Shown: one piece after another, positions 12,439 to 61,600 of the stretch
How positions within the stretch are numbered: position 1 is the stretch's first letter
How the letters are laid out: each line of letters starts with the position of its first letter
NCBI GenBank assembly: GCA_948144175.1
Contig: CANXME010002666.1
Span: 97,832-161,831 of the forward strand
Direction of reading: 5' to 3'
Source: Closterium sp. NIES-65
Lineage: Eukaryota; Streptophyta; Zygnematophyceae; Desmidiales; Closteriaceae
DNA: 64,000 nt
The notes under the pieces: generated by a model
What the model was told of the DNA's origin: nothing
Database searches by the model: none
The model's input: only the letters and a program-made list of their open reading frames with translations
Program-made: the position numbers and the translations under genes

Positions 12439-15400
12439 GTGCGGGGAGGCGGAAGCGACGGTGTGGTTGCCGGGGGTGGCGGAGCGGCGGGAGCGGGTGA
12501 CGGAGGCGGAGGGGGGAGCGGGCGCGGGGACGAGGAGCTGCTGTGCCCCAACTGCCGCGCGCCCCTCTCGCTCCTCTCTTTCCCCGCGCTTGCCTTCCCC
12601 CATTCCCCCTCCTCCCCGTCCGCGTCCGCGCTATCTCCGCCCATGTCCGCGGCGGAGGCGCGCACGAGCGGGCGCGCGGTGCTGTTCTGCCGCCAATGCC
12701 AGCGATTCACCGACAGGCCGGTGGCGAGAGGGACAGGGGAGGCGGAGAATGGGCGGAAGGGGAAAGAAGAGGGGCAGCCGCAGGTGACGGCGGAAGGGCA
12801 GTGCGCAAGCGGGGGGAAGGGGGAAGGATTGGGGAAGGGCAAGGCCGGGGGGGGGGCGCGAGAGTGGGGGAGTTTGTGGAGGCGGACTGGTATGAAGCGG
12901 ACTGGAAACATGTCTCCCCCCTTTCCGCCGTCACTCCCCCCGAGCCCCCCGCCTCTGACGCGTGGCAGTGGTCCCGCTTTGGGCGGCAACTTAGCCGCCA
13001 AGACGGCCGCCCGGGCGGCAGGTCTGCGCGCAGCGAGCTGGACGGGATGATGGGCGGGGCGAGCGGGGGGGAAGGGGGGAGCGCGCGGAGGGATGCGCGG
13101 GAGGAGTATGTGAATCGGTTCAAGGCGAGTTTGCAGGGGTGGGGGGGGCACCCGTGGGCGCAGGGACAGGGGCAGCAGGGGCAGGGACAGGCAGGCGCGG
13201 GGGGAGAAAAGAAAGCGCAAAGGCAGGGGCAGGGGCGGAGTGAGGGGCAGCAGGTGGGCAGCAGCGGAAGGAATAGAAGCCCTGGCGGTGGCGGAAGCAG
13301 CGCCAGCGCGTATCCCCCTAGCTTCTCCTCCCCCCTCCTGCACGCCCCCAGAGGCCCCCCCGCCCCGCCTCCGCCCCCGTCCCCCCTGGCCGCGCCCACG
13401 CAGATCCCCCCCGCGCCTGGCGCGGGTGCGGGGGAGAAGCGGGGGAGGGGGCAGCAGAGCGGGGGAGGGGAGGGGAGGGAGGGGCGGGAAGGGCGGGAAG
13501 GGCGAGAGGGGAGGGAGGGGCATGTGCCGTGTTTTGGGGCGGCAGGGGGAGGGGAGGACGGGACAGAGCACAACTGGGGAGGGGCGAATCTGGGGAGAAT
13601 CTGCCCACGCCCAAGCAGATCCGGGCAGCTCTGGATGAATTTGTGATCGGGCAGGATAATGCGAAAAAGGTGAGCGGGTGCTGGTGACGTGGCAGTTACT
13701 GTTAGGCTGGTGGTGTAACAGGTTTACAGTCACAGACTCGCTAAGAGCAGTATTTTTTCTTCTTCTTTTGATTTTATTTGTAACCGAATGTTTGCAGTGG
13801 CGGTGGTGTACCCACTACGAGCGCATCTTCTCTATAAGCTCATTTCGTTACGAGCCCTTTCCGATCCCCGTATGCTACCCTTTGCTGCAGGTTTTGGCAG
13901 TGGCAGTTTACAATCACTACAAGCGCATCTTTCTTGAAAACCAGAAGCGGGAAAGACTTGCCAACCTGCCAGAGGGGTGAGAAGGGGTAAAAAAAAGGCG
14001 AGAGGAGGTTCAGAGGGGTGAGAGGGGGAGGAGAGGAAGTGGGAGAGGGGCTGTGTGCTGTGTGTGGTGAGGGATGGAGAGGGAGAGGAAATGTTCTTTA
14101 AAGTGATTCAAGCAAGGATTAAGAGGGAGAGGGAGAGGGAGTGACCGGTCATCTACCTGAACGATCCCCTTTTCTACACCTCACATGGGGGAAAGAGATT
14201 AGGCTTGCTCCACATTTTGCCCACTGTCCGCCCTCCCTCACTCACTCACTTCTGTTCTTGCTCACCCCCATGGTGGATAAGAGCAACGTGCCCCTCACTC
14301 CCTACCCTCTCCCTATGCCCCCCGTCGCCCTCTCTTCCACCTCTCTTCCCCCCTGCAGGGCGTGCGAGAACCTGGTGGGGGGCGGTGAGGAGGACGAGGT
14401 GGAGGTGGAGAAGAGCAACGTGCTGCTGATGGGTCCCACGGGTTCAGGTGGGTGCAAGAATCACCACTGCAGCATACGGGGGGCAGGGCCGCATGGGAGC
14501 AGCGGAATAGCATAGGGTAGGGCAAGCATGGGACGAGGTGCAGGTGGGGAAGAGCAACGTGGTGCTCATGGGAGGGACCCACAGGCTCTGGTGGGTGGGT
14601 GGTTGGATGCAGCCCATCGGAAGCAGTAGGTGTTTGGACGGGTTCAGGCGTCGTGTCGTCTCAAAACTCGATGGGCCCGACTGACTGACACATGGGTCCC
14701 TCGCACGGGCCCCGATCATGTCGCTCGCATACAGCTGTTCAGGTACTATCGCCTGTCAAGCAAGGGCTGCCCAGAGGGTTTATTGGAGGGAAGATTTTAA
14801 CAGGCTCATGAATGCGTGTATGCGTTCTTGCCTTCCTGTCGCCCAGCGGTCTCATGAGCAACGTGCTTCTCATCTCGCTCACGCGTGTGTCTCTCTCCAC
14901 TCAACTTATCCCACTCCCCACCTGTCAACTCACCTTATCGGCTCCACTCCATCCGCCCACTCCCTACCCGCTCCGCGCCTGTCCGGCCTGTGATGGCAAT
15001 GTGGTCAACATCCCAGGCCACTCCCTACCTTATTCTTTGCGGGCGGTATTTCAACCGCTGCTGTCCCTTGGGTGCAGTGCATGCAGGCAAGACCCTACTG
15101 GCCAAGACTCTGGCGCGGTTTGTCAACGTGCCATTCGCCATTGCTGATTTTTGAGTCGACTCAAAAAAGTCCCCTCCCCCCACACACTGGTGGGTGACTA
15201 TCCCCTCCCCCCCCCCAACGCGTGCAGGCAAGACCCTACTGGCCAAGACTCTGGCTCGGTTTGTCAACGTGCCATTCGCCATTGCTGATTTTTGAGTCGA
15301 CTCAAAAAAGTCCCCTCCCCCCACACACTGGTGGGTGACTATCCCCTCCCCCCCCCCAACGCGTGCAGGCAAGACCCTACTGGCCAAGACTCTGGCTCGG

Positions 15401-18400
15401 TTTGTCAACGTGCCATTCGCCATTGCTGATGCCACCACTCTCACTCAGGTGCGCCTTTAACGAGGTGACTCTTAATTGACTCAAAGGCCACTCTCACCCA
15501 GCTGCGTCTCATACCGCCACTCTCATCAACTTCCACACCCAGCTGCGTCTCATACCGCCACTCTCATCAACTTCCACACCCAGCTGCGTCTCATACCGCC
15601 ACTCTCATCAACTTCCACACCCAGCTGCGTCTCATACCGCCACTCTCATCAACTTCCACACCCAGCTGCGTCTCATACCGCCACTCTCATCAACTTCCAC
15701 ACCCAGCTGCGTCTCATACCGCCACTCTCATCAACTTCCACACCCAGCTGCGTCTCATACCGCCACTCTCATCAACTTCCACACCCAGCTGCGTCTCATA
15801 CCGCCACTCTCATCAACTTCCACACCCAGCTGCGTCTCATACCGCCACTCTCATCAACTTCCACACCCAGCTGCGTCTCATACCGCCACTCTCATCAACT
15901 TCCACACCCAGCTGCGTCTCATACCGCCACTCTCATCAACTTCCACACCCAGCTGCGTCTCATACCGCCACTCTCATCAACTTCCACACTCAGCTGCGTC
16001 TCTCTGATTCTCAGGTTGGATACAGCCTGGTTTCCACACTCTTTCACACGGGAGAGTTCACCAGTATGGTTAACCAGTAGGGTTAACTCTCCCGTGTCAT
16101 GGTATGCCACTTAGGGAGTGCGTGACAAGGGGCATATTATTACTATCACCGTTGCTCTTGAGCCAATTCCCACACGATGACTCGTGATTCGCCTCAAAGG
16201 TCACTTCGTTACAGTGGCATGCAGGACAACGGGCTTTCTACTAGAACTGTGTTTCCTGAGCCAACGCTCACCTATTTCTCATTCTCTGGTGCTGTTTGTC
16301 GTGCAGGCTGGTTATGTGGGAGAGGACGTGGAGATGATTCTCTATAAGCTGCTGCAGGTGAGGGACAGAAGGGGTTGTTGGGGTTGGGACAGGGAGTGGG
16401 GGGTGGGGGGGTTATGTTATGTTAGTGTTTCTGCTCCTCGTGCAGGCGGGGTATGTGGGAGAGGACGTGGAGATGATTCTCTATAAGCTGCTGCAGGTGA
16501 GGGGGTTTGGAAGAGGTGAGACGGGTCAGTAGAGGTGTTAGCTTGTCGTGCAGAGGACGCGGAGATGATATTTTACAAGTTGCTGCACCTACAAGTGGAG
16601 GTGAGGGTAGGGGTTGCTGCACCCGGGTCCCAACCCCGGGTGGCTTCACGTAGCTCAACTGCTCCTTACAAGTTACATTCATTTTGCTCCTGATGTGCAT
16701 GCTTGCATGTTCATGACTATCTGTTCTGTGTGTGATTCCCATGGTGGTGTGTGTGTGTGCGTGACTGTCCATTTGTCTTACGCAGAGCGCCAATTTCAGT
16801 GTGTCAGCAGCGCAGCAGGGCATCGTGTATATCGACGAGATCGACAAGCTTACCAAGAAGGTGGGCTCGCTAGCAGCACTAGCGGCACTAGCTGCACGGG
16901 CACTAGGAGATGCAACCCCCCCCCACTAAAGCAGCAGCGCAGCAGGGATCGTGTATATCGACGAGATCGACAAGCTTACCAAGAAGGTAGGCTTGCTAGC
17001 AGCACTAGGGGCACTAGCGGCACTGGCGCTAAGTAGGTGCTCCCCACCCCACCAGAGCAGCAGCGCAGAAGGGCATTGTAAACATAGATGAGATTGACAC
17101 GCGCACTAAAAACATGAGCTTAATCTGGACAGCCCCCGCTCTCCCCTCTGTGCGTGCCTGGACAGGCAGAGGGCATCACGAGCACACGGGACGTGTCAGG
17201 GAAAGGCGTGTTGGAGTGTCTTATCCAATAAGTGTCTTACTGATTCCTCTCTCCCCCCTCTCTCATCTCCGCGCCCTGTATGACTGCACAGGCAGAGGGC
17301 ATCACGAGCACACGGGACGTGTCAGGGGAGGGCGTGCAGCAGGCGCTTTTGAGGATGCTCGAGGGCGCTGTGAGTAAAGAAGGGGGGGGGGGAGGGAGGG
17401 TATGGGAGTATGTGAGGAGGTTGGAGGAGGCGGGATGGGAGGGACGTGTCAGGGGAGGGCGTGCAGCAGGCGCTGTTGAGAATGCTCGAGGGCGCTGTGA
17501 GTGGGGGGAAGGGGTGGGCTGTAAGGGGATATGATGTGAGCTGGTTTGAAGGACGGTGGGATGAGAGACACAGGTCTATTGGCGTTTGAGATGTGGCAGG
17601 GGAGGGCGTGCGGCCGCCGTTGTTGAGGATGCTGAGGGGCGCTGTGAGGGTGGTGTGAGCATCCATGAGCCCGTTTGTCACACGTGTGTGTCCCTCTACC
17701 TACTGGTGCGGAGCGGATCTTCTCACTCCCCCTGGGCCCTGGGTGCAGGTGATTGATGTGCCAGAGAAAACAGGGAGGAAGTCCTTCAGAGATTTAGGGC
17801 GCCTTGTAAGTCTCATGTGCCGGTCTTCCCCCTGCTCCTCCCCTCTTCTCCCGGGTACAGGTGATCAATGTGCCAGAGAAAACAGGGAGGAAGAATCCAA
17901 GAGGCGAGTTCATACAGGTACGGGCTACAGGGGTGCGGGAGTGCGAGGGTTGCAGGGGTGCAGGGGTACGGGGGTAGAACAACGATACCGGGTGTTTCTG
18001 TTTTGAGACGTCTCAAAACACTTCTTCAAACACGGAGTGCGAGGGTTGCAGGGGTGCAGGGGTACGGGGGTAGAACAACGATACCGGGTGTTTCTGTGCC
18101 GAATGCCTGGAAATCACAACGAATATCACACAGAGCGGAAAGGGTTTCTGCTCAATGGCTAGATACGTTTGAGGCGCATTCCAAGTCGGAGTGTGTTTGT
18201 TAGCATGGCTAGCGACCTTCATCCCCTTGGAATTTACCTCAACAGAGGTGAGGGTCGATGAAGAGTATGTCTACCACCTCTTATTCCAACTTTTGAGGCG
18301 CGTCAGGAGTTGTCTCCGTTCATGCTTACTGCCTGCCATTCCCCTCTCGCATACCTCCCCTTTCTTTGCCCCACCCATCCCACCAGGTTGACACACAAGA

Positions 18401-21400
18401 CATACTCTTCATCAACCCTCACCTCTGTTGCTTGCCGTGCCAGCCATTCCCAGCCCAATACCCCCTTTCCCATACTTGACTTTGCCTTTCCCCTCCCAAC
18501 CCACCAGCTGGACACACAGAACATTCTCTTCATCTGCCCTCCACTGCCGCTGCCTGCTATTCCCACCCCCACGCCCCAAGCCACATGCCCGATGCCCCAT
18601 CCACCCCAATGCTTCCCCTTATCCCACCCCGCCAGCTGGACACACAGAACATTCTCTTCATCTGTGGAGGGGCATTCGTGGATCTGGAAAAGACGATTGC
18701 AGAGAGGTGAGGCGGAGGCTGCTTTTGCTGACTCAAAATGCACTCACTGATACGTCTGCTATCGTCAGGTTTTTGAGATTTCTCAAAACATTTGCTGACT
18801 CAAAATGCACTCACTGATACGTCTGCTATTGTCAGGTTTTTGAGAATTCCTTCAAAATTTGCTGACTCGAAATGCACTCACTGATACGTCTGCTGTCGTC
18901 AGTTATGACCTAAAAAAAAAAAATCGAAGAAAAGACAATCGCACTGAAGGTGCGCAACCATGGTTTTGGGGCAGGGAAAATGAAGCCACCGTTTCTCGCC
19001 TTTCAGTGCGATTGTCTTCGCCGCAGCAGTGTGTGCTACAACTGTGTATGCAGGCAATGTCAGGAATGCAGTCCCATCTTAACTACTTTGCCTACTCTGA
19101 TGACCCACCCACATGTTAGAAACGACTTTCAATAATTGTCTGCAGTTTGACTCTAACATTGACTGCGGTTTGAATCGGTCTGATTGTCTGCAGTCAATGT
19201 TAGGAATGTATCTCCTGCCTTTCGTTGGCCGTGCTATGCTAGCCCTCAGAGCTCCTAAGCGCGCAACTCTGCAAGCACTGCAAGAACATACAATGTTGTC
19301 TTGACTGCATGTCTTGACTCTCTCTATTACCATTCATTTGTTGCAGGAAGCGCAAGTCATCAATCGGCTTCGGGGCCCCCGTGTGACATTGCTGCAATCA
19401 TTGCAAGCAGACATGAGACTGACTGCATTCCATGACTCAAATCCCAATATTACCTTGCTGCGTGCAGGAAGCACAAGTCATCCATCGGCTTCGGGGCCCC
19501 CGTGCGCGCATCGCTGCGCAACCGATCGGTGCTTGACGCCCGCACTGCCGGCTCGCTGCTGCAATCGGTGAGTGCTAACTCTATACCGTTGGTTTGTTTG
19601 TTTGTTTTTTTGGTTGATTTGTTTGTTGGTTTGATTGTTTGGTTGGGTTTTGTTTTGTTTTGTTTTGTTTTGTCATTGTTTTAGCGCGTGTGCCAGCGAT
19701 CCATGCTTGCAACACTTGCTGTGTGTGCTTGTGGGCGTGCTGCTTTTGAGAGCTGCTTTTCACTGTCCTATAAGCCACCTGCTGCAGTTGATGCGTGCTC
19801 TTCCTTCAACCATCCTTTCCCCGCCACCCCGCAAACCCCCTTCCCCCCTTTTTTTGTATCAACGGCTCGCAGAGAGCACTTTTGAGGCGCCTCAAAAGTT
19901 GTCTCTCTACCCGCAATTCCCGTATCTCCCCCCCCCCCCCCCCCCCCCCCCCCCCGTCTTTTTTTGCTCATCAACTGCACTCAGAGAGCACAGATCGGGT
20001 AGCCTACAGGCTCGTCCCCGAGTTTGTGGGGCGATTCCTTGTGTTATTGTTATACCCCTCCAGATCCTCCCTCCCCATCGTTCAACATCCCTCCCCACCC
20101 GTCCCCACCCCTCCCTACCCCTCTGGAACGGCAGGCAGAGAGCACGGATCTGATAGCCTATGGGCTCATCCCTGAGTTTGTGGGGCGATTCCCCGTGCTG
20201 GTGGGGCTGCATGCGCTCACAGAGGAGCAACTCGTGCAGGTAATGACTGGTGCAGGTAATGACTGGTGCAGGTAATGACTGGTGCAGGTAATGACTGGTG
20301 CAGGTAATGACTGATGCAGGTAGTGACTTGTGCAGGTAATGACTGGTGCAGGTAGTGACTGGTGCAGGTAGTGACTGGTGCAGGTAATGACTGGTGCAGG
20401 TAATGACTGGTGCAGGTAGTGACTGGTGCAGGTAATGACTGGTGCAGGTAATGACTGGTGCAGGTAATGACTGGTGCAGGTAATGACTGATGCAGGTAGT
20501 GACTTGTGCAGGTAATGACTGGTGCAGGTAGTGACTGGTGCAGGTAATGACTGGTGCAGGTAATGACTGGTGCAGGTAATGACTGGTGCAGGTAGTGACT
20601 GGTGCAGGTAATGACTGGTGCAGGTAATGACTGGTGCAGGTAATGACTGGTGCAGGTAATGACTGGTGCAGGTAATGACTGGTGCAGGTAATGACTGGTG
20701 CAGGTAATGACTGGTGCAGGTAATGACTGGTGCAGGTAATGACTGGTGCAGGTAGTGACTGGTGCTGGTAATGACTGGTGCAGGTAGTGACTGGTGCAGG
20801 TAATGACTGGTGCAGGTAATGACTGGTGCTGGTAATGACTGGTGCAGGTAATGACTGGTGCGGGTAATGACTGGTGCGGGTAATGACTGGTGCGGGTAAT
20901 GACTGGTGTGTGTAGGCTTTGGTAACAACAGCTGGTGCTCATGGGGCTGCGTGCTTTCACAAAAGAGCAACATGTGCAGGTAGGTGTAGTGCAGGTGGCA
21001 ACTGGTGCAGGTGGCAACTGATGCAGGTGGAAGCAAAGGACCTTTCTTATGCACTTCGAATTATGTCTATATACAGAGCTGAGTGGCTTTCCTTGCATGA
21101 TTCGACACGTATTTTGGTCCATCTTCTTTTCCTAATCCCTGCCCAGAAAATTTACGTTCTTAAAACCGGAGGGCCAAGAAGGCCCAAATTGCCTCAACCT
21201 TCCTAACCTTGGTTGAGTTTGGCCCTCGCACCCAAAATCTTGGCCAATTGTGTTGCTCGCTCCAACCAAGCTTCCTAAGGTTGAAGTTCTTGGCCCGCGG
21301 GTTGTAACCCCTGAAACACTACCCGATTCTTATCCCTCTCCCCACCCTCCTGCTCCTTCTCCGTACTCGTTCTCTCCTCTCGGTGTGGCTCTCACTTGCA

Positions 21401-24137: not shown

Positions 24138-24140
24138 TTA

Positions 24141-28358: not shown

Positions 28359-31300
28359 CTCCCCTTCGCTTCTGGAGTGTCGCTAATGGTGACGTGGCCT
28401 TGTCCAGTCAGCAGCATGCAGTACTTGAACTTCTGTTTTCCGAGTTTCTTGGTCAAGTAATCGGCTGCCATCTCGGACGTGGGACAATAGGATAATTCGA
28501 GTTTCCCTTTCTCGATCTCGTCTTTCACGAAGAAGTATCGCAGAGCGATATGCTTCGTTTTGTTCGCGAATCCGCTTTTGTTGGCGATGCGAATTGCAGA
28601 TTGGTTGTCGCAGAATAGGGTGAAGTTGGGTAACTCGGCTAACTTTGCTTCTTCCAGCAGCTCGCGAAGGTAGAGTCCTTCCTTGGTGGCTGAGCAGAGG
28701 GCGATATATTCTGCTTCAGCTGAAGAGAGAGCGATTAGTTCCTGCTTGCTCGACTGCCATGAGATAGGTCCGATAGGCTCGAGACGATAGACGTAGCCAG
28801 TGCGAGAGCGCCTGTTGTTAGAATCGCCGGCATGATCGGCATCGACGTAGCCGATTAGTTTCGTGGTCGTAGTTTCGTTTTTGTAGTAAGTCAGGCCGAT
28901 CGTCGGAGTGCTCACGAAGTAGTGTAGTGCGCGATCGAGCTCCGCCAGGTGCTCTGCTTCGGGTTTCTTGAGGTAGGTAGCGAGTTGGCTTGCGGAGTAG
29001 GATAGATCCGGGCGGCAGGTGACGGCTGCGAAGAGGAGGCAGCCCAGTTTCCTCTGGTAGTCTCGTATTCCGGCAGCTTTGAGTGGAGCGGAATTTCCTT
29101 TGTTACTTCCTGCCGTGTAGCGGTATGGCGTGGCGATAGCGGTAGGTGTGAGCGAGAAGCGCTTGGAGATAGTGTCGGCGTATTTCTCGGCGCTTAAGTA
29201 GATAGCATTTTCTTCTTCGCGGATGTTGAGCCCGAGGTACTGAATGACGGTAGAAGAAACCGTGAGCGTGAGGTCCTTCTGCAGCTCCCCTTAGAACCAG
29301 GTGGTGATGTCGTCGGTGGAGCCGATGTAGAGTAGGTCGTCGACGTAGACGATCAGTAGGATGTAATCGGCGTCTTTAGTGAATCGATACATTCCTTGGT
29401 CGTGCGGCAGTTGGCGGAATCCGATGCGAGTGAGTCGGGTGTGTAGGTGCTGTTGCCACAGCCGCGGGGCTTGTTTGATTCCGTAGAGCGATTTCAGTAG
29501 CTGGCAGACCTGATTGGGGTTTCCGTGGGTACCGTGTGGGAGTTCGACGAAGATTTCGGCGTCGACGGGTGCGTAGAGAAATGCGTTGGCGACATCGATT
29601 TGTCGCGGTTTCTTCTTCTTCATGGCGGCAACGGCGAGAAGAATTCGAAGAGAGGTATGTCGACTAACTCGGGCGAATGTCTCGGTGAAGTCTCGTCCTT
29701 GCTCTTGGTCAAATCCACGCACGACCCAGCGTGCTTTGAACTTCTCGATTGTGCCGTCTGCTTTCGTTTTGATGCGGAAGACCCATTTCCCGGTGAGAAT
29801 GGTCTTGTTCCTTGCCACGCTTGCTGGAACGACCTTCCAAGTGTTGCGTTCCTCCAGTGCCTTTAACTCTCTGTCCATGGCTTCGCGCCATTTCTCCCTG
29901 TGTTCCCCCCCTAGAGCCTGCTGAACCGTCGCAGGCTCCTTAGGAAGTACGTTGCCGTGGACTGCGGTGATGAGGCCGAGGATTTGCAGTCCAGTCTGTG
30001 AGTATCGGGGGAGTGTTGGATCCTCAGGATAAGCTGCTTCGTCTCCCGCTTCTGGATCGGGTATGAAATTTGGCCCTATCCGTTCTGCTTCGTTTGTGTT
30101 AACTGTCGCAGGTGTTACGTAACCGTTGTCGGCGAAGTGATAGAAGACTTCGGCGTTGACACTGTCGCGAGGATTGTCTTCGTCCATGGGCACGTCGACG
30201 GAGCAGTACGGGAGAGGTCCGGTTTCTTCCGATGCGTTGTCGACGTTCTGTTCATCCCAGTCTGCTTCGTCCGCTGCTGAGGCGAAGGCTCGGTCACCAT
30301 GAAAACCACCTGTGGGGTCCTGATTCTCGTGAAAGTTGGCGAGGTACGTTTGAAGGGTGAGTCGCTCGTAGAAGATCACATCACGTGCTGCTACTGTTTC
30401 CTTTGAGTGGACATCGAAAATTTTCCACGCGTTGTATTTTTTCTCGATGCCGAGGTGTAGTCCCCACTGTGCCCGTTGTGAAAATCTTCCCGCTCGTGCT
30501 TCTGGGGGTCGGTACTGCACCATGCATCCGAAAACTCGTAACATTCTTGTGCTGCCCTGCTTTCCTGTCCACAGCAGATGCGGTGATGCGTTGTTCGGGA
30601 GTGACGACGACGACAGCAAGTTGTGCACCATGACAGCATGGTCCATTGCTGCAGGCCACTGGTGGTTGGGTAGCCGCATGCCACGTAGCAGTTTGCGCAT
30701 GCTGTTTTGCAGAGTCCTGTTCATTCTTTCTGCAACACCTTGCTGCTGATGGGCGTAGGGAAGGGAGAGGATTTGCTTGATTCCCCTTTCCGCCAGGTAC
30801 TGCTTGAAGCGCTGAGAGGTGTATTCTCCTCCTCTGTCTGACTGGAAGATTTTCAGCTGTGTTCCTGACTCCCTCTCTGCTACCGGTAGCCAAGCGGCGA
30901 ACGCTGCGAGTGCCATGTCGCGGCTGGGTAGGTTTCGATGCCAGACGTATCGAGTGGCGGCGTCGATGAAGGTTATCGTGTAATTGTAGGTGACTTGTCC
31001 TGGTTCTCGATTGAAGAGGATGTCGCTGTATACTTTCTCGAGTGGTGCGTATGCAGGTGCGCTCGGGTTGTGGTGAGAAGAAAACGGTCGATGGGGTAAG
31101 TCGGCTTCGGGGCAGATGAGGCAAGTTCCTCGTGCCCGTTGAAGTTCTCTGCCGTCGGGTGGTAGTAGCGAATCTTTGTCGAGGACTCCTGCTCGTATTG
31201 TGTTATCTAATACTGTGTTGCTTGGATGTCCTGTGCGTGCGTGCCAGATGTCTTCAGGAGCGCGATGTCCGGGTGAGCGTTGATACGCGTCGGAGTTGGA

Positions 31301-41907: not shown

Positions 41908-44840
41908 CTCCCCTTCGCTTCTGGAGTGTCGCTGCTGGTGACGTGGCTCTGTCCAGTCAGCAGCATGCAGTACTCGAACTTCTGCTTTCCAAGCTTCTTG
42001 GTCAAGTAGTCAGCTGCCATCTCGGATGTGGGGCAGTATGACAGCTCGAGTTTTCCCTTCTCGATCTTGTCTTTCACGAAGAAGTATCGCAGGGCGATGT
42101 GTTTCGTCCTGTTCGCGAAGCCGTTCTTGTTGGCTATGCGAATGGCCGACTGGTTGTCGTAGAACAGGGTAAAGTTTGGTAACTGGGCTAGCTTGGCTTC
42201 CTCCAGGAGTTCGCGAAGGTACAGTCCTTCCTTGGTGGCTGAGCAGAGTGCGATATATTCTGCTTCAGCTGAAGAGAGGGCGATTAACCCCTGTTTGCTC
42301 GACTACCAGGAGATAGGACCGATAGGCTCGAAGCGGTAGATGTAGCCGGTGCGGGAACGCTTGTTGTTGGAGTCGCCGGCGTGATCGGCGTCGACGTATC
42401 CGATTAGCTTAGGCGTTATAGTTGTGTTCTTATGGTAGGTCAGGCCGATTGTCGGGGTGCTGACGAGGTAGTGAAGAGCGCGGTCGAGTTCCGCCAGATG
42501 TTCCGCTTCAGGTTTCTTGAGGTAGGTGGCGAGCTGGCTTGCAGAGTACGATAGGTCCGGGCGGCAGGTGACAGCTGCGAAGAGGAGGCATCCCAGCTTC
42601 CTCTGGTAGTCCCGTATGCCGGCGGGCTTGAGTAGAGCGGAGCCTTCCTTGTGGTTTCCTGCCGTGTAGCGGTATGGCGTGGAGATGACGGTCGGTGTGA
42701 GTGCGAAGCGCTTGGCGATGGTATCGGCATATTTCGCGGCGCTGAGATAGATCGCGTCCTCCTCTTCCCGTATGTTGAGCCCGAGATATTGCGTGACGGT
42801 AGATGAGACTGTGAGTGTAAGGTCTTGCTTTAGCTCCCCTTCGAACCAGGTAGTGACGCTGTCGGTTGAGCCGATGTAGAGCAAATCGTCTACGTAGACG
42901 ATTAGCAAGATGTAGTCGGTGCCCTTTGTGAGCCGGTACATGCCTTGGTCGTGAGGTAGTTGGCGGAATCCGATCCGAATGAGTCTTGCGTGCAGGTACT
43001 GCTGCCACAGCCTCGGGGCTTGTTTGATGCCATAGAGCGACTTCAGCAGCTGACAGACTTGGTTAGGTTCTCCGTTGGAGCCGTGCGGTAGCTCGACGAA
43101 GATTTCTGCGTCGACAGGTGCGTAGAGAAATGCGTTGGCGACGTCAATTTGCCGAAGCTTCCTTCTCTTCATGGCGGCGATCGCGAGGAGAATTCGCAGC
43201 GAGGTGTGTCGGCTGACTGGAGCGAATGTCTCGGTGAAGTCACGTCCATGTTCCTGGTCGAAGCCACGTACGACCCAGCGTGCTTTGAACTTGTCGATGG
43301 TGCCGTCAGCCTTCGTCTTCACGCGGAAGACCCACTTTCCAGTGAGAATCGTTTTGTTCCGTGCTACGCCGATAGGAACAACCTTCCAGGTGTTGCGTTC
43401 CTCCAGTGCTTTCAGCTCCTTGTCCATGGCTTCGCGCCATTTTTCCTTATGCTCCCCCCCCAGAGCCCGCTGAACTATCGTAGGCTCTTTAGGAATGGCT
43501 ATCCCATGGACTGCGGTGATGAGACCGAGTATCTGGAGTCCACTCTGTGTGTAGCGGGGAAGTGATGTGTCCGCGGGATAAGCTGCTTCGTCTCCCTCTT
43601 CTGGCGTAGGATTGAAGTTTGGTCCTACGTGTTCTGCTTCGTTGGTGTTGACTTGTGCAGGTGTAACGTAACCGTTGTCGGCAAAATGGTAATAGGCTTT
43701 GACGTTGATGCTTTCGCGTGGATTTTCGTCATCCATTGGGACGTCGACGGAGCAGTAGGGGAGAGGTCCGGCTTCTTCCGAAGCTCCTTCCACGTTCTTC
43801 TCGTCCCACTCAGCTTCGTCGACTGCCGAGGCGAAGGCTTGGGTGCCAAGAAAACCATCAGAGAGATCGGGGTTTCCTTCTTGCAAGTTGACGAGGTAAT
43901 CCCGGAGGGTGAGGTTTTCGTAGAAGATGACATCACGTGCTGCTACTGTTTCCTTTATCTCGACGTCGAAAATCTTCCATGCGTTGAAATGTTTTTCGAT
44001 GCCCAGATGTAGTCCCCACTGTGCGCGTTGGGAGAATCGGCCAGCTCGTGCAGATGGGGGTCGGTACTGTACCATGCAGCCAAAGACTCTCAACATTTTT
44101 GTGCTGCCCAGTTTTCCTGTCCACAGCAGATGCGGTGATGCGTTGTTCGGGAGCGATGATGACGAGAGCAAGTTGTGCAGCATGACGGCGTGGTCCATTG
44201 CTTCGGGCCACTGGTGGTTGGGCAGGTGCATGCCACGTAGTAGCTTGCGCATGGTGTTCTGGAGGGTCCTGTTCATCCTTTCTGCTACACCCTGCTGTTG
44301 ATGGGCGTAGGGGAGAGAGATGAGTCGCTTGATTCCTCTCTCTGCCAAGTACTCCTTGAACCTCTGTGAGGTGTATTCTCCCCCTCCGTCTGACTGGAAG
44401 CTCTTGAGTTTTACTCCGGATTCTTGTTCTGCTACTGGAAGCCAGGCGACAAAGGCTTCGAAGGCCATGTCGCGGCTTGGAAGATTTAGGTGCCAGACGT
44501 ATCGAGTGGCTGCGTTGATGAAGGCGATGGTGTAATTGTACGCGTTTTGTCCAGGCTCGTGGTTGTACAGGATGTCGCTGTACACCTTCTCGAGTGGCGC
44601 GTAAGCTGGTGCGCTTGGGTTGTGGTGAGGCACGAACGGTTGATGCGGTAGGTCAGCTTCGGGACAGGTGAAGCATGTTCCACGGGCTCGCTGAAGTTCT
44701 CTACCGTCAATTAGGAGTAGAGAGTCCTTATCGAGCATGCCTGCTCTTATCGTGTTATTTAACACCGTGTTGCTTGGGTGACCCATTCTTGCGTGCCAGG
44801 TTCCTTCGGTGGCGCGATGTCCGGGTGAGCGCCGATACAT
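41892..44840 (-). pseudogene. element 2 pol: integrase, reverse transcriptase, RNase H
   Basis: Open from about 44840 to TAG at 42303-42305, then in the same frame to a stop at 41892. The TAG replaces the Gln that follows PISW in element 1. The integrase has HARMGHPSNT with the C-x2-C pair, then VYSDILYN, FQSDGGGEY and QGVAERMNRT. RT has FLYAPVDAEIFVELP and YVDDLLYIG. RNase H has GYVDADHAGDS and, after the stop, LSSAEAEYIALCSATKEG. Domain order and sequence match element 1. Upstream, two frameshifts (about 44865 and 44936-44990) separate this frame from Gag-protease. Confidence 0.92.
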
Positions 44841-48356: not shown

Positions 48357-48399
48357 CCGGTGCGTGCCAGGGACAGGAGGAGGACGCTGAGCGAACTGT

Positions 48400-49330: not shown

Positions 49331-49496
49331 CCTAAGGGGGGAGGGGGTCTACTGGGGGGGGACCTGGCACAAGGAAGAGCGGTGGCGGGGGGAGGGACGG
49401 AGTGCGGTAGGGGAAGAGGCGGTAGTAGGGGACCGACTCGTCAAACGTGACGTCCTGGGAGGACAGAACACGACGAGAGGTGGGGTGGTAGAACTG

Positions 49497-51560: not shown

Positions 51561-51726
51561 TCCTCCAGTGCCCCTGCCCCCCTTGCCTTTGCCAGAGCGG
51601 CGTCTCCCGCTAGGGGCAGACGCCGCACCGACTGACTCAAGACCAAGGAGGTCGGCCGCAGCAGCAGAGGCAGCAGAGGGCAGAAGGGGGGAGGGGGAAC
51701 ACCCCTCAAAGATGGGGGTGCGCGGG

Positions 51727-52366: not shown

Positions 52367-52434
52367 GACAACAGTAGACTAGCAGCGCACACAGTAGGGA
52401 AAGGGCAGTGCAGTGACAGAGTCGGTGTGCTTAC

Positions 52435-53330: not shown

Positions 53331-53599
53331 GCGCGACTTGGCCGCTAGGGCGTCTCGACGAAGTCAGAGACGGGAGCGCGACTCGGGCTGAGCGCGCTCC
53401 GGGCTGGAAAAAAAAACTTTCGACTTGGTGGGCCCTAGGCACAGTTCCCAGGAGGGAACCTGCTCGATACCATGAGAAAACTGAAACGAGAATGGGACAC
53501 TAAGGAATGGAATGTGGTACAAATATGCAACCCTAGAAATATGTACCCCATATGGGCTACCCCACTACAGCCTACAGAACATCATGATTTGACACTGAC

Positions 53600-54632
53600 G
53601 TCTTCCTTTTGTGCCTTTCTTCTTGCAGGTCCATGTCTTGCTGCTCGGCATGAATTTCGGAGCAAAGTGCTGCTTCGGAGATTCATCCGTGAGCTCAGAG
53701 AATGGCTTTGTGGCACGCCATTGAGGACCGAGGCCGCCAATGATGACTGTCACGGAGGCGTCTTCAGATATCGACCCTCCGCATCAAAGAAGTTTGTCGC
53801 GCAATTCGCGATAGCGACTGATATACGCCATCCCCTTTTCCCCTGGTTTCATTTTGACTGTTGTCAGTTTGCGCCATTAGTCGACTCTGACTTACGCTGT
53901 CTGTTGCTTGGTACAGGCTTTTCAAGTGGCTGTATGCGAGTTCTGCGGAGTTGCCGTATCCCCGGTAAGACCGTATATTCTGTTGCCGAGTCGGGGTGAT
54001 ATTCTCGGTAGGATTGTGTACGCCATCATTGACTGATAGGTGTACTGCTGCTTCTCGTACTGTGTGCCGTTTGTTGGGTATGGCAGGGATCCGTTGAAGA
54101 AGCCGAGGATTTGCGCGCCTTCCATCATCAGCTCGAACTCGAATGACCAGATAAAGAAGTCCTTTCCGTCGAAAGGTCTTGACTTCTGCAACTTCAAAAC
54201 GTGCGCGAACTGTGACTGAACTTGTAGCGCGTCCAGTGTCTTCTCTTGTCCAGGTGCAGGCTGCGGTTGTGGCATAAAACTGACGGAGCCGCGGTGGGGC
54301 TCGTACGGAGCAAATGTAGGTTGCTGCTGTTGATTTCCACGTGCGTAGGATGAACCATCAAGGCTCATTGGAGTCACGTCGTCGTTGTTGTTGCTGTTGT
54401 GTGACTGCACAGGTGCCGATTGCTGGTGTTGCTCGTAGAAGGACATGAAGGAGAAAAACTTCTCCATCATGCTCTGGTCGAAGCCTGCAGGTTGATTCGC
54501 GGGAGTCTCGGTGGATGTTGCCCTGGGTCTTGTTGCCGTACCCTCCTCTGTCTGTAGGCCAGAGGCAGGAGGTGGAGTAGGAGTAGTGCCGGGAGAACCA
54601 ATAGAGGAACTCCTTTCCTTCTGAGTAGTCAT
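53600..54632 (-). pseudogene. element 2 Gag N-terminus
   Basis: ATG 54632 begins MTTQKERSSSIGSPGTTPTP, close to the element 1 Gag. It is open to about 54000 (KDFFIWSFEFELMMEGAQIL, YTYQSMMAYTILPR), then frameshifted, with later fragments such as VIIGGLGPQWRATKPF at about 53750. It stops at the left edge where element 3 is inserted. Confidence 0.9.
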
Positions 54633-54691
54633 GTTTTCTGATGTTGTAGGTGTCTTGATAGTTGAATTCCCCCTGATAGCTCTCCATACCA

Positions 54692-55156
54692 TGTTGGGCT
54701 GAGAAAATAGCCCTTAGGATCTTTGCACGGGTGAACTCTGGGTAGAACTGATGTAGTAGCGGAAGCGTTTAATGAAGAGTGTGAACCACCTTGCGCTAGT
54801 ATATGAGGGCAAAAGTTGATTGATTAAAGCAAAGAGATACAAGATTATATATGAATACAGGGAATATGAAAAGACACAGTTATAACTACTTTACTGTTGC
54901 TGTTGCGGTTCGATACAGTGACGACTCGGGCAACTGCTCTGTAACGAGTTGAGTCGTGTGTCCTTGCTGCCCGGCGCTGTACTTGTCAGGTCAAAGGTCG
55001 CTGACCTTTGACTTTCGCGTAGCCTCCGACAGTTGTTCAACCTCTGAGGGTTGACTCGCTGGTGCTTCGATAATGTTTTGCTTCGATAGTGTTTTGCTTC
55101 GCTTGGGTCTTGGTGTTTCAACACGACAGAGGCGCTTAAGTTAGTTGTTTCCAACA
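54692..55156 (-). repeat. element 2 right LTR (5' LTR in element orientation)
   Basis: 465 bp, matching 41461-41907 apart from scattered changes and an extra duplication of GCTTCGATAGTGTTTT near 55080. Confidence 0.93.
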
Positions 55157-55690
55157 AATGTCTTTGTGTTGCACCAAATCAAGACCAGTTGGAAAAATCA
55201 TGTGGCATGGCAGGGGATCGCGTGGGCTGGGCTAAAAGTAATGACAGGTGGAGGCAGTTGAGATGAGATGAGACTACATTTTGTAATGCTTCCTTTCAGA
55301 CCCCTGGAATTTCATTGCATCAGAGACCAAGTGGTTGATTCTGTCATCTTCTTTAAAATATTGTGTCTTTGCATAGAGCTGTTAGTACAGAAAGTAAACG
55401 TGGTGCTTTGTTTCTTCTGTACCTGTAATCGAGTCAATACAAACGCAGAGCTCTCCGTGCTTACCCTTTCACCCGCACAAGGGCCATTCCTGCTTGATCT
55501 CAAAATGTACTTTTTGCCACGTCACATCATATCCATTCATCACATTGCAGTGTGCAAGAGTAGGGTAGAACTTCTAGCAGTGAATTGCTCGTCCATTGGC
55601 CAGACACGCGACGCGATTTGCTAAGCCTGCGCTGCTGTAACGCGAGAGCGTGTGTGGGTGGGTGTGTGTTTACCGTTTGAATGTGCTGCA
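55157..55690. other. flank between element 2 and the RUS gene
   Basis: No gene seen. GACTACATTTTGTAATGCTT at about 55271 resembles the flank of LRR copy 1 near 37690, supporting that element 2 interrupted duplicated LRR 3' DNA. The last part may be the RUS 5' UTR and promoter. Confidence 0.55.
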
Positions 55691-58600
55691 ATGGCAGCTG
55701 CAATGCGATCGTGCTGCCATCTGCCGTGCGCTCCGGCCCTTGGGAATGACGGGCACGAAACGCGTCGCTTTGGCGCCTTTCAGGGTAAGGCGATTCGCGG
55801 GAGCGGCACAATGTACTCACCTGTCAAATGCGCGTATCGAACTGCCGAAATTGACTCGATAGCGGGGACAGGGAGAAGACCAGCAGCTGGTCGACCATTT
55901 CGAGTCGTCACCGCGAGGTTACCATCGGGTTTTGCGGGGCCTCAAGACGGAAGGCTAGCAGCAAGACCGTCAATTGCGGGGAAGTTGCGACTGGCGGAGG
56001 CAACGCGATCCGCTGCTCCTGGCGCGCGGGTCAAAGCGCACGCCTTGGCATGGCGGAGCGGAGACGGGCGGGGGGGAAGCGGGGGTAATGACGGAAGGGG
56101 GAGAGGGGGCGGCGGCGGAAGAGGGGGAGATGGAGGCGGAGGGGGAGGCGGAGGAGAGGATAATGGAAACGACGGAGGTTGCGGAGGGCAAGGTGGTAAC
56201 CAGCAGGAACATGGTTACTTGTTCCTATTGAAGCTGTTTTCTGATTGGTCCAACTCCCGTCTCGACGCCCTCTCTCCTCTATTCCACAACCGCCTAATCA
56301 CGTTTCCGAGCGCATTATCACTCTCCGCATTTCTGCTTATCATGCTTCCGCTGCTCGTCTCCCCGCTAGCGCGCGCGGAATCCGCGCTTCTCCGCCGCCC
56401 TGCGCCTCCCCCTGCAACCGGCGCGCCCGCGGCCGACCAGGATGTGATATGGGAGCTCCACGGTGACAGGTGGCGGCGCCTGATTGGCGGAGACAGTAGC
56501 AGCAGCAGCAGCGCAAGCAGCAATAGGGGGAAGGGCCAGCTAAGGGTGGAAGTTGAATTGGAAGGCGAGGAAGCTGCTAACGCGTACGAGGAGGAACACG
56601 GACGCGTTGTAAAGGGGATCGTTACAAGCACGGGGAATGGCAATGGGAAGGCCGCAGGGGGTAGGGTTTTAGCGGGGGAGGAGGATGAGCGGAGCAGAGG
56701 GGGGATATGGTTGCGCGGGTGGTGAGGGGAGTGAAAGCGGCGGTGGTGAGATGGATGTTACCAGAGGGTTATCCCGATAGTGTGACTCCTGACTATATGG
56801 AGTACACAGTGTGGCGCATGCGGCAAACAGTGGCGAGCGAAATGAACCACGTGCTTACAACGCAGGTGAGACGCGTTTCTATGTCGCAGGCTCCTTCAAT
56901 TGAGGTCTGTTTGCTATGTCTAAGAACCTTTCTCTCCCCTGCCCTCCTCTCTCCGTCCTTTTCCTCACCTGAAGCCTTTCTTCTCTCTCTTCTCTCAAAC
57001 GGTCCTTCGTGGTAAAGGACGGGCTGGGCTATGCAGCCGAGGTCACGCCCTCCCAGTTCAACATGTTGCATCCCTTCCCCCTCGAACGGTCCTTGCATTA
57101 ATCACGGTGGGTGTTACAAGGAAGGTACAAACACAAGCAAGACAAACAACCAGACCACAATTCTACCTATCACACCTACTCCTTCCCACTCCCGGCCCCC
57201 TCTGTCCGACCCTACTGGCCGAATGGGGGCTCAATCAGCTGGTGCAGCTGTCCCTCGCTAAGAGGGACGATGGGGCCCTGCATGCCGAGCTCGTCCGCTG
57301 CCAAGGCCTCGTTGGTCTTGGAGCGGAGGGCATTGGCCTGCGCTCCCTGGAGGCAGACACTCCAGTGCTGGCGGTACTCCGTCAGCAGCTTGGCTGCCTC
57401 GTATGAGGTAGGTGCTGAGTTGTATCGCAGCTTGGCCGCTAGCTCCGCGCACTGCCGCAGGTAAGCCATCACCCCCGGGGAAGGACAGCCGTATGTCTCG
57501 ACTGCAAGGGCGTGGAAGCCCACCCACGCGTTCCGTCGCGCGTATTTCTCCTCCTTCCTAGCTGCTGCCGCCCTTGCCGCCCACCCTGGAGCCCGACTGC
57601 ATTCTTTATCCTGGTAGGACACGGGATCAGTCACAGTCACGTCACACAACCACACTCTCTCCCTCTCTTTCCCCCTCTCTTCCCTCTCTCCCTCCCTCCC
57701 TTTCTCTCTTCCCTCTCTCGCTTCCCTCCCTCTCTTCCCTCTCTCCCTCCCTTTCTCTCTTCCCTCTCTCGCTTCCCTCCCTCTCTTCCCTCTCTCTTCC
57801 CTCTCTCGCTTCCCTCCCTCTCTTCCCTCTCTCCCTCCCTTTCTCTCTTCCCTCTCTCGCTTCCCTCCCTCTCTTCCCTCTCTCCCTCTCTTCCCTCTCT
57901 CTCTCTCTCTTTCTCTCTTCCCTCTCTCGCTTCCCTCCCTCTCTTCCCTCTCTCCCTTCCTTTCTCTCTTCCCTCTCTCGCTTCCCTCCCTCTCTTCCCT
58001 CTCTCTCTCGCCTCCCTTTCTCTCTTCCCTCTCTCTCTCGCTTCCCTCCCTCTCTTCCCTCTCTCCCTCCTGCAGGCAATGCTGTACGCGGTGGGGCTGG
58101 GAAAAGGCGCCATCCCAGCAGCAGCCGCGGTCAACTGGGTGCTGAAAGAATCCAAAGTCACGCTCTCCCAGTTCAACCTGGAACCATTCGTCTCTCCTCC
58201 CTCTCTTCCCACTTTCTCTTCCCTCCTCGCCTCTCCAGGCAATGCTGTACGCAGTGGGGCTGGGCAAGGGCGCCATCCCAGCAGCAGCCGCGGTCAACTG
58301 GGTCCTAAAAGACGGGCTGGGCTACGCTGCAAAAGTCACGCTCTCCCAGTTCGGCCGCCATTTCGACGTCTCCCCCAAGCGCTCGCGCCTGCTCTCCGAC
58401 CTCGTTGAGAACCTCTCCGCCTCCCTCGAGCTCCTCACAGCCACCTTCCCGCAGTACTTCGTCCAGCTGGCCGCTGCAGCCGGGGCAGGGTTCTCTGCTT
58501 CCAGCCTCGTGCAGAGTGCCACGAGAAACCGGTTTTACGCCGGGCTGGCAGGCAGAAGAAATTTCGCCGAGGTAAGGCAGCACCTTAGGTCGGGCAGGTG

Positions 58601-61600
58601 AGAGTGCCGATGCGAGCAAGTGAGATTGCCGATGTGGGCAGGTGAGAGGGCCTGTGAGGGACATTCCCTCACTCCGACCTCGTTGAGAATCTCTCCGCTT
58701 CCCTCGAGCTCCTCACGGCCACCTTCCCGCAGTACTTCGTTCAGCTGGCCGCCGCTGCCGGGGCGGGGTTCTCTGCCTCGAGCCTCGTGCAGAGTGCCAC
58801 GAGAAACCGGTTTTACGCCGGGCTGGCAGGCAGAAGAAACTTTGCCGAGGTGAGATTCAACGCTGTCTTGGGAGCCAATGGGGCCAGGAGGGGGGATATG
58901 CTCCCTCCTTGGACTTCCTTACCTTCTATAATCCTGGCTGGGGTTGTATGGGTTCAAATTGCAGAAAGCCTTCAAAAAAGGCCTAACATTTATATCGGTG
59001 CTTTTATAGGCGTGTGCTGGGAATGGAAGTAAGCGGCTCTTATGGTTTTCAGGTTCACGAGTCACATGTCTTAACTCGTCAGCCTTTCATCCCCCTTCTT
59101 CTTCCCCAACCCAACCACCCCGAGTGTTGGTGTGTGTGCGCAGAAGCACAGCCGCACAGGGCATGGTGAGCATCGAGCAAGACATTGGAGATGGCAGTAG
59201 GCGTCATTACTTTTGAGGCGCCTCAAAGACAGGGCAAGATAATTGGAATGGCATGAGGCCTCGCCATCGCCCCACACATGGGCACAATAGGCCCGGTGCT
59301 GTGCTCCTCTCATTACGCTCCCCGTGTTCTCCCTTCCACTCCACCCTGCCTTCCTCTCCCACAGGTGCTAGCACGTGCAGAGGCACAGGGCATGGTGAGC
59401 AAGACATTGGGGATGGCCCTGGGTATCGCCATCGCTCCACACGTGGGCACCCGGGGCCCTCTGCTGTGTGCGACGCATGCCGTGCTGTCCGAACCGAACC
59501 TTTCGTGTGCTTTCTCTGACTGTTCCTCCTTTTCATCTCCCCCCAGGTCTTGGCGCGGGCAGAGGCACAAGGCATGGTGAGCAAGACATTGGGGATGGCT
59601 CTAGGCATCGCCATTGCTCCTCACGTAGGCACCAGGGGTCATCTGCTGTGGCTGATCCACGCATGCCCTGCTGTCCGGCCCACCCATGTGATTGTACTTC
59701 ACTTTCTGCTCCTCCCCTTCCTCTCCCCACAGGTGCTAGCACGTGCAGAGGCACAGGGCATGGTGAGCAAGACATTGGGCATGGCCCTGGGTATCGCCAT
59801 TGCTCCTCACGTGGGCACGAGGGGTCCTCTACTCTGGGCAACACACGCCCTGCTGTCCGAACCCAACCATTTGTGTGTTTTCTCTGACTGTTCCTCCTCT
59901 TCCTCTCCCCTCAGGTGCTAGCACGCGCAGAGGCACAGGGCATGGTGAGCAAGACATTGGGGATGGCACTAGGCATCGTCGTTGCTCCTCACGTGGGCAC
60001 CCGGGGCCCTCTACTGTGGGCAACTCATGGCCTGCTGTCCGCCGCCCACCTGTTTTGCAACTACCGCTCGTACAAGGCCGTTCAACTCAGGACGCTCAAC
60101 CCCTTCAGAGCAGGTAAAATAAGTACTTGCTTGCAGGAAGCCTCACAAGCATTCAATCCAGTGGATTCAGAAGCAGATAGTTACTTCCAGAGCAGCTATT
60201 GTCATGTCATGTCTTTGAGCTGTAACCACAATTGTTTTTTAGGCGCCTAAAAAATCATCTCAAAAAGTTTGAGGCGCCCCAAAACATTCGCCAGAGCAGC
60301 GACCGTCGTGTCTTTGAGCTGTAAGGCACGACGGTCGCTGTAAGCACAACTCAATTAGTTCCCTCCTTCACCTGTTTCTGTCTAAGTAGCTTGCTCCGCT
60401 GCGCTGTCCTCTCTGCTTCCCCTGTGCTCTCTTCTACCACTGTTCTTTCCCCAGATATTGTCCTGGCAGAGTACGTGACCAATGGCAGGGTGCCAGGTGT
60501 CATCGAAGTCAACTCCCAGGAACCCATTCTGCCGCCCCTCAAATCGATATTTTCGCCCAAGGTATCTCTGGTGTGGTGCATGTGTGATGTATGTGTGGTG
60601 CATGTATGTATGGTGCATGTGCATTGCATGTGCGTTACAAGTGCCACTTAGCTGCAGTGCCTCACTCACACAGAGAGATCTCATCCCTCCTTCTCCCCTT
60701 TCTCTCTTCACAGGCGTCCCCTCCACCTCTCCCCGGCACAGGTAGCGAGAACTGGATTGAGTTCGGAGTGCCCTTGGCAAGTAGGCAGCAGTGGCTCACA
60801 CAGACAGACGTCTCAACACTCCCTTACTCCCATTCCACCCGAACCCCCTCCCCTCCTCCCCTTTCCAGGCCTCTCCCCCTCCTCGTCCAGGCACAGGCAG
60901 TGAGAACTGGATCGAGTTCGGAGTGCCCTTGGCAGCAGTGGCGCAAAAAGAGACCTCTCAACCCCCTCATTCCCCCCTCTCCACCCGTTCCCCTCCCCCG
61001 CCCCTTCTCCGCGTCCCCTTTCCCAGGCGTCTCCTCCACCCCTTCCCGGCACAGGGAGTGAGAACTGGATCGAATTTGGGGTGCCCTTGGCCGCAGTGGC
61101 GCACACAGAGCGGGAGGCTGAGACCATGGCTGATATATTCCGAGGAGAGAAGTACCTGCTTGGGAGGGACGAGCGTACGGGGCAGATGCAGGTGCGTGTG
61201 CTGCTGCGCATGCTTGTGTTTTGAGATGGGAGTGAGGCACACAGGTGTGCTGTGCTGTGATGTGCAGTGGGAGGAGGCAGAGGCGGTGGCTGGGATGGGA
61301 TATGCCGAGGAGAGAAGTACCTCCTTTGACAGGACGAGCGTACAGGGCAGATGCAGGTTCATGCTGTGTGCATCTGTGTGCGTGGGTGGGTGGGAGAAAC
61401 GGGAATGTGTGGGGGCCTGCAGGTTGTGTTGAAAGAGGGATCTGTCTAGGGACCTCCTCCGGGCGGCCTTACAAATCCGGCCACCTCCGCATGTGTGCCT
61501 CCTCGTCTCAATCCCGTCCCTTCCACCCCTGACACTCACCATGCAGGTTGTGTTAGGGTGTCACGCCGCCGCACGGAGGAAGTCTCGAAAGAGATCCCTC

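Follow-up and report, generated by a model that had tools for sequence, protein, structure and literature searches.

Short palindromes of the form TTTTGAG-N4-CTCAAAA stand at the edges of broken exon copies in the introns of two genes of Closterium sp. NIES-65, and the question is whether they cause the copying or arise with it. The DNA in question is a stretch of 64,000 nucleotides (the window), positions 97832-161831 of contig CANXME010002666.1, here called C2368, in an assembly of 874,075,685 bases and 2400 contigs. A sequence-only reading had proposed a hairpin-forming sequence with a variable tetraloop that drives or terminates local copying, or else a tiny mobile element. Its central suspicion, that a dispersed palindrome goes with local copying, break repair and a tiny mobile element being the candidates, was borne out by the genome-wide abundance of the motif and, in the stretches sampled, by direct duplications at it far above random. 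Most likely, palindrome and duplication come from one event.

Abundance and form of the palindrome

The motif had been expected to exceed its chance frequency, and in a search of the whole assembly TTTTGAG-N4-CTCAAAA was found at 30,327 places, against 4 for the reversed-pattern control and about 3 expected from equal base use (874 Mb divided by 4 to the 14th power). The spacer was fixed at four bases; spacers of 5 to 34 bases gave 3,103 matches in sum (control, 172), many of which, among those listed, were two adjacent palindromes. The 18-mer palindrome occurred at seven places in a 257-Gb prokaryote collection and at one in viral contigs. The TTTTGAGNCGNCTCAAAA pattern was present in 11 viral contigs, including the viral contig with the 18-mer, with a self-complementary centre in 2 of the 11, and inspection by eye, with no program, of the 45 bases flanking each viral match revealed no subtype arms. 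A prokaryotic or viral source was rejected, the motif being merely sporadic in these public collections. The sequence TTTTGAGGCGCC was absent from the literature searched, where subscription journals are mostly missing, and no description of such palindromes appeared among the titles and abstract openings listed in topical literature searches.

The centre and arms were analyzed in about 278 kb of partly overlapping own-genome DNA, about 0.03% of the assembly, which included C6, C9, and C10, the first contigs listed by the genome-wide pattern search, and stretches of C21-C43 picked from the longer-spacer search, a choice biased towards loci where another CTCAAAA is close by. Among 56 exact copies (264 kb sampled), the centre was TCGA in 24, ACGT in 14, GCGC in 11, and AATT in 2, with five singletons. 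It was self-complementary in 51 of the 56 exact copies, in 24/26 copies with one mismatch, and in 16/28 with two, as compared to 1/16 of random 4-mers; the reversed-arm control gave no site with up to two mismatches in the same sampled DNA. The picture is one of a perfect palindrome, later decaying. The earlier description as a variable tetraloop, with a freely varying centre, does not fit centres that are mostly self-complementary and of few types.

Symmetry extended beyond the core. At the first flanking pair, 41 of 48 distinct copies were symmetric, where 1000 shuffles gave a mean of 19.2 and a maximum of 30; at the second, 26 of 48 were (shuffled mean 14.4, maximum 25), and the counts for pairs 3 to 8 in the same 48 copies fell inside the range of the 1000 shuffles. 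The arm consensus differed between subtypes, being GTCACCTCG in TCGA and a sequence of about 19 bases, CACTTCTTC...CACG..., in ACGT, and per base about half of the flanks agreed with the consensus of their subtype. Where the duplication could be measured, at 18 TCGA inserts of which four belong to one array, prefixes of GTCACCTCG accounted for 73 of 88 arm bases, a figure that is descriptive and not an independent test, as the consensus came from an overlapping insert set. The arms of these inserts were 0 to 13 bases long, 0 to 7 in 17 of the 18, and unequal on the two sides in 14. Ragged symmetric arms are clear for the TCGA type and looser for the others, among which the arms vary more.

Half-units of the palindrome were also followed through the sampled DNA. 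The 16-base ACGT half-unit, with one mismatch allowed, was accompanied by its mirror in 11 of 11 cases, and the 16-base TCGA half-unit by a mirror with at most one mismatch in 41 of 46 near-matches, many of them from one array; the five mirrorless ones all stood directly after TCGA or TCGT. Long symmetric inserts were met as well, a clean one, GAGTGACTTTTGAGAATTCTCAAAAGTCACTC, between 44-bp copies and one of 44 bases, palindromic except for the centre ACGG, between 56-bp copies. Head-to-tail half-units linked by the same 4-mer were seen on C9, as CTCAAAAGTCACC-TCGA-CTCAAAAGTCACC, and on C24, as GCGC-linked units; such repeat addition is suggestive only.

Duplications flanking the palindrome

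The palindromes listed from the sequence alone were all present in the window, with positions right within 1 to 2 bases. Five were exact copies of TTTTGAG-N4-CTCAAAA, at 15149, 15290, 18001, 18771, and 19880; the one at 59211 had its final base altered, the one at 60235 was a symmetric variant (TTTTTTAGGCGCCTAAAAAA) with both sides changed together, and degraded forms were confirmed at 18291, 18838, 60267, and 61839. With up to three mismatches, the 18-mer TTTTGAGGCGCCTCAAAA had 10 window matches, of which the one at 55930 is possibly unrelated, versus 0.03 expected in shuffles. Six perfect palindromes had arms of at least 10 bases, against 0.09 expected, and they include an unrelated 20-bp one (AATCGTCTACGTAGACGATT, 42884-42903) within a Copia coding region. 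Folded as single-stranded DNA, six window palindromes formed hairpins with stems of 6 to 9 bp.

At all seven loci A to G, the palindrome or a close variant lay between direct repeats of 29 to about 70 bases (Table 1). In local alignments of the left with the right flank at 12 window sites, with 300 shuffles each, the score was equalled by none of the shuffles at eight sites (the second palindrome of A, B, C, the degraded site of C, D, E, F, and G) and by 1/300 at the decayed half-site 16185; nothing was found at 18291, 18168, and 14649, where 210, 71, and 118 of 300 shuffles equalled the score. The first palindrome of A, at 15149, was outside this alignment and belongs to the same tandem array as the second. 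By a stricter break-point score, the second palindrome of A, B, both sites of C, D, and G exceeded 25 and E reached 14; neither palindrome of F scored at all, nor did two of the degraded sites, and the first palindrome of A failed, its third target copy lying beyond the search range. The window evidence by itself is good, not overwhelming.

The palindromes at 17999 and 18771 had been said to separate direct repeats, which they do at B and C, with copies of 63/63 identical bases and of 47 bp, and those at 60235 and 61837, unmentioned before in this respect, likewise lie between direct repeats. The related claim that the palindrome begins exactly where similarity is lost held at A, B, C, and D; at E, F, and G, gaps of 5, 9, and 1 bases intervene. 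The filler at B, CACTTCTTCAAACAC, is the ACGT-subtype arm met elsewhere in the genome.

Table 1. Palindromic inserts and their flanking copies in the window (window positions; strand + or, for inserts and degraded sites, a point).
Feature	Positions	Strand	Description
Locus A, copy 1	15079..15148	+	ClpX exon: splice acceptor and first part, ending ...GCTGAT
Locus A, insert 1	15149..15219	.	Palindrome TTTTGAGTCGACTCAAAA, TCGA type (20 bp perfect, 15148-15167), then about 53 bases of other sequence
Locus A, copy 2	15220..15289	+	
Locus A, insert 2	15290..15360	.	Identical palindrome, 15290-15307; tandem copy of the unit, period 141
Locus A, copy 3, intact	15361..15430	+	Reading runs on GAT/GCCACC
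Decayed half-site	16185..16200	.	CGCCTCAAA; weak flanking duplication 16124-16166 / 16225-16264
Locus B, copy 1	17938..18000	+	63 bp
Locus B, insert	18001..18033	.	TTTTGAGACGTCTCAAAA (perfect 22 bp, 17999-18020) and CACTTCTTCAAACAC
Locus B, copy 2	18034..18096	+	63/63 identical to copy 1
Degraded palindrome	18291..18308	.	TTTTGAGGCGCGTCAGGA; between exon piece 18240-18272 and inverted copy 18398-18430; direct duplication not detected
Locus C, copy 1	18724..18770	+	47 bp
Locus C, insert	18771..18790	.	TTTTGAGATTTCTCAAAACA
Locus C, copy 2	18791..18837	+	Third copy 18857-18902
Locus C, sister insert	from 18838	.	TTTTGAGAATTCCTTCAAAA; AATT type, broken by an indel
Locus D, copy 1	19818..19879	+	Pyrimidine tract and ClpX exon start AESTDL..., ending GAGAGCAC
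Locus D, insert	19880..19926	.	TTTTGAGGCGCCTCAAAA (perfect 22 bp, 19878-19899) and about 29 bases
Locus D, copy 2	19927..19991	+	Exon similarity extends beyond copy 2
Locus E, copy 1	59177..59210	+	RUS/DUF647-like exon copy; program-aligned only to 59205
Locus E, insert	59211..59228	.	TTTTGAGGCGCCTCAAAG; program starts copy 2 five bases later
Locus E, copy 2	59229..59262	+	Program-aligned from 59234; exon similarity extends beyond
Locus F, copy 1	60187..60225	+	
Locus F, insert, two palindromes	60235..60284	.	TTTTTTAGGCGCCTAAAAAA 60235-60254; GTTTGAGGCGCCCCAAAA 60267-60284
Locus F, copy 2	60291..60324	+	
Locus G, copy 1	61797..61835	+	Exon copy
Locus G, insert	61836..61894	.	TTTTTTTGAGGCGCCTCA..., right arm decayed, and about 38 bases
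Locus G, copy 2	61895..61933	+	38/39 identical to copy 1; exon similarity extends beyond

In the sampled own-genome DNA, the association was far above random. With both copies within 30 bases of the palindrome, a score of at least 12, and array members counted singly, a duplication was found at 49 of 56 copies versus 272 of 1500 random positions. A second finder, with one palindrome per cluster, up to 40 bases allowed, and a score of 10, gave 37/43 clusters versus 112/600 random positions in stretches of four contigs, and the enrichment at local duplications, which had been proposed for testing, was thereby seen. A larger set, in which some places were retrieved twice and the biased stretches of C21-C43 are represented, had duplications at 89/109 clusters. 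At 58 loci, with array neighbours and repeated targets dropped, the duplicated segment measured 14 to 89 bp (median 41; finder range 12-130); the two copies were 100% identical at 18 loci, at least 97% at 26, and below 90% at 11. Because copy-pair identities span this range, the process seems to be old and recent alike.

Repeated use of one target was observed at C6:104156-104232 (palindromes at 104156 and 104215) and C24:129777-129903 (palindromes at 129777 and 129886), where three target copies are split by two different palindrome types; these are repeated events at one spot, with a nearly identical left boundary each time. Tandem expansion reached 27 palindromes with the unit TTTTGAGTCGACTCAAAACGAGGTGAC inside one 49-bp target duplication on C43 near 1010328 (L073 from 2328). 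The 431-base surroundings of locus B had eight further full-length places at 99-100% identity; copies lie at C2368:5150, 33845, 86859, and 115531 (four on the window contig, window included) and on C2123, C508, and C2004, and they reflect either recent segmental duplication or a feature of the assembly. The 96-bp unit of locus B was repeated more often on C2244 and, by match coordinates only, on C2013 than in the window. Many of the loci listed were paired across contigs with the same flank, e.g., C343:1090290 and C1721:1818768, which suggests separate haplotypes or homeologues; one pair differed by one centre base (TCGA versus TCAA).

Possible origins of the insert

The order of palindrome and copy can be read where the exon copy continues. 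At A, the last exon copy reads through in frame without a palindrome, and at D, E, and G, the exon similarity carries on past copy 2. Because the exon copy at these four loci runs on without the palindrome, palindrome and extra copy appear to have arrived together, and a pre-existing hairpin that drives or ends the copying, as first imagined, is not what these loci show. The hairpin as a prior cause was also rejected on the arrays at A and C, which have three targets and two palindromes.

With slightly less than even confidence, we favour the palindrome as a micro-insertion from the same event that duplicated the target, a staggered break having been tailed, annealed, filled, and sealed. A double-strand break with staggered nicks, about 14 to 90 bases apart as judged from the duplications, would be followed by the addition of the same short 3' tail to both broken ends. 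Per strand, this tail would read (ragged outer arm)-TTTTGAG-N4, with N4 being TCGA, ACGT, GCGC, or AATT, in the manner of a copy made from a short template whose end is fixed. The 3' ends, both self-complementary, would anneal mutually, and fill-in and ligation would give target copy 1 - arm - TTTTGAG - N4 - CTCAAAA - arm - target copy 2. Synthesis from a variable start to a fixed end, with the fixed ends meeting, would leave a constant centre and a ragged outside. Some events apparently add more than one unit, and the unit of target and insert may later expand in tandem. Head-to-tail half-units are what repeat addition would give, and their counts (24 same, 17 different) are no proof. We infer, rather than observe, that one event comprises a staggered break, tailing, and annealing, and the same holds for the identity of any template and enzyme. 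More specifically, and rather doubtfully, the cell may possess a break-healing system that puts a short templated tail on both ends, with the self-complementary 4-mer as a built-in sticky end, and so leaves a palindromic scar and a duplicated target.

Parts of this scheme have precedents. Target duplication by fill-in at staggered breaks has been reported in other systems (PMC8355091), where, as here, one segment is duplicated at one site through fill-in and end joining; in contrast, a sequence-specific palindrome stands between the copies in most cases sampled here. Two adjacent direct copies were present at 37/43 clusters. Insertions in rice were reportedly treated by Vaughn and Bennetzen. 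Telomeric repeats are inserted at mammalian break sites, sometimes with target duplication (PMC2246262), and interstitial telomeric repeats in general resemble the present case in a defined short sequence added at breaks (PMC2246262, PMC8537989); they offer a precedent by analogy, with no claim that telomerase acts here. The inserts differ from them in not being TTTAGGG, in the inverted joint at the centre, and in the several subtypes. The assembly does hold TTTAGGG arrays of the plant telomere type (2,267 plus and 788 minus matches to the four-fold repeat; control, 0 and 2), probably the telomere repeat of this organism; as a source of the inserts it was rejected, the listed inserts being without TTTAGGG.

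Several results weigh against the tailing scheme. The arm match was weaker outside the TCGA type (ACGT 130/226 bases, AATT 32/63, and GCGC 17/39), the fillers at A, D, and G contained no recognised subtype arm, and the 13-base TCGA half-unit, with one mismatch, lacked its mirror in 13 of 84 cases. Head-to-tail joints had the same 4-mer in 24 of 41 cases and a different one in 17, several of the former being decayed palindromes or simple repeats. Six of the 43 clusters had no duplication at score 10. A flank score of 26 with the end of copy 1 within 9 bases, limits fixed post hoc at the weakest of the seven loci, was reached at 7/7 loci, yet also, local copies being plentiful in these gene regions, at 19.5% of 4000 sampled positions outside the palindrome loci, and 11% of positions also exceeded the break-point score of 25. 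Duplications were also found at 22/45 lone TTTTGAG sites of the same sequence, and local duplications abound in this genome, which makes the association non-exclusive; many of the lone sites are suspected to be decayed palindromes. An empty allele was not found in the related contigs compared, which held either this insert again, an array that had expanded, or a copy with many errors; C508:28890-29320 was rejected as an empty site because this error-rich copy still contains the damaged palindrome. No enzyme, template gene, or parent element turned up, and no genome-wide search with half-units stands behind this statement.

A possible alternative, given appreciable but lesser weight, is a very small non-autonomous, hairpin-shaped mobile element with target duplications of variable length, its full subtypes being perhaps 36 to 56 bp, often truncated, and mobilized in trans, either by a transposase or by a reverse transcriptase of the LINE type. 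It would explain the family structure as well as tailing does, namely, a dispersed family with subtypes, some of them with long shared arms (ACGT, CACTTCTTC...CACG), and flanking duplications whose copies range from identical to less than 90% alike; the Copia elements in the window are retroelements active in the past. Miniature inverted-repeat transposable elements (MITEs) and terminal inverted repeat (TIR) transposons share with the present family the short inverted repeats, the many copies, the subtypes, and the target duplication. In contrast to these, the centre is conserved here and not the ends, which are ragged, most clearly in the TCGA type, and both the raggedness and the constant centre are left unexplained. 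The duplications of 14 to 89 bp (median 41, 58 loci) have no short fixed length and exceed those of TIR transposases in both size and variability. Variable target duplications do occur here as with LINE and SINE elements, but no tail was seen by eye in the listed inserts, nor was there a fixed 3' end, and one-sided truncation was not found, the longer arm being on the left in 18, on the right in 26, and equal in 4 copies (n=48). The same counts led to the rejection of a LINE-like polarity, which the window had suggested because the palindrome seemed to abut directly on copy 1 at A, B, C, D, and G, though not at E and F.

An improbable source is the plastid or mitochondrion of the organism itself, whose palindromic repeats would have been caught as filler at nuclear breaks, an origin proposed for nuclear palindromes of Volvox. 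Volvox carteri has such repeats in both organelles and in the nucleus, where they were judged inert (PMC2670323), and like the present ones they are scattered hairpins of 10-100 nt that lie in introns and spacers and are sometimes nested; six window palindromes are likewise hairpin-capable and of that size. In Volvox mitochondria, the repeats have an AT content of 71-84% and loops such as TAAA/TTTA, and the word duplication is absent from the main text of that paper (PMC2670323), whereas here there are a fixed TTTTGAG-N4-CTCAAAA core, a mostly self-complementary centre, and flanking direct duplications. Captured fragments should start anywhere, but the palindrome and its arms are often the entire insert, and the 30,327 exact copies are all centred on the same 4-base joint.

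Equally improbable is short-range template switching in replication or repair that makes inverted and direct copies with the palindromes as by-products. Such switching can create and mend perfect hairpins (PMC8794818), other inverted copies occur within the introns, and in the variant at 60235 the two arms have changed in concert. Template switching copies local sequence, however, and cannot yield identical TTTTGAG arms and few centres at thousands of places; template switching is contradicted for the core, and arm-to-arm correction by it may occur. Introners are also dispersed insertions in genes (PMC9860276); they differ in that the inserts here were not seen to supply both splice sites, though no test was aimed at this.

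An assembly, adapter, or library artefact deserves very little credence. The palindromes do look like ligated linkers, and one stretch (C508) is error-rich. Against this, copy identities vary from 100% to below 90%, palindromes decay, and identical inserts recur on separate contigs, and because of these observations an artefact appears unlikely; copy number also differs between related contigs, and the reversed-pattern control gave 4 matches only.

Genomic setting and meaning

The window DNA looks nuclear and plant-like. It contains a gene whose exons join into ClpX (best match E 5.9e-102, under the curated cut-off, for the joined part of the protein), a UVB_sens_prot/DUF647 gene (RUS/DUF647-like, PF04884), two Copia-type elements, leucine-rich repeat (LRR) proteins, and many tandem repeats; no known RNA families or tRNAs were found in the window. 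Both genes (14360-20240 and 58060-62800) are crowded with partial exon copies, which are direct or, in some cases, inverted, e.g., 18240-18272 / 18398-18430 and 61567-61667, and some of the partial copies in both genes are without any palindrome. A satellite with a 29-base unit repeated 165 times occupies 4402-9195 and is preceded by 90-, 150-, and 160-base arrays. Runs of 28 C (19928-19955) and 30 G (63967-63996) mark places where the assembly is possibly unreliable, and the copy of the ClpX region at C508:28890-29320 is full of small deletions and seems to be either a part of the contig that is of poor quality or a copy in decay. Bases after the proposed right nick are T-rich, and at some sites the next palindrome follows.

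Should the insert be a mobile element, it would be among the smallest known to us, and we know of no class for which the conserved part would be the right one. If the tailing scheme is true, it would be a repair route without description in the literature searched. A duplication of 14-89 bases across a splice acceptor would leave a broken exon copy in the intron beside the intact one, as at locus A, and such scars would explain a share of the exon copies in both genes. With thirty thousand sequence-tagged sites, most of the sampled ones at duplications, the origin of short tandem duplications would become readable, as would intron growth by exon copying, each event being dateable by the divergence of its target copies. 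Taken together, the palindromes suggest that Closterium sp. NIES-65 has an unusual way of inserting DNA or of re-joining broken chromosomes.

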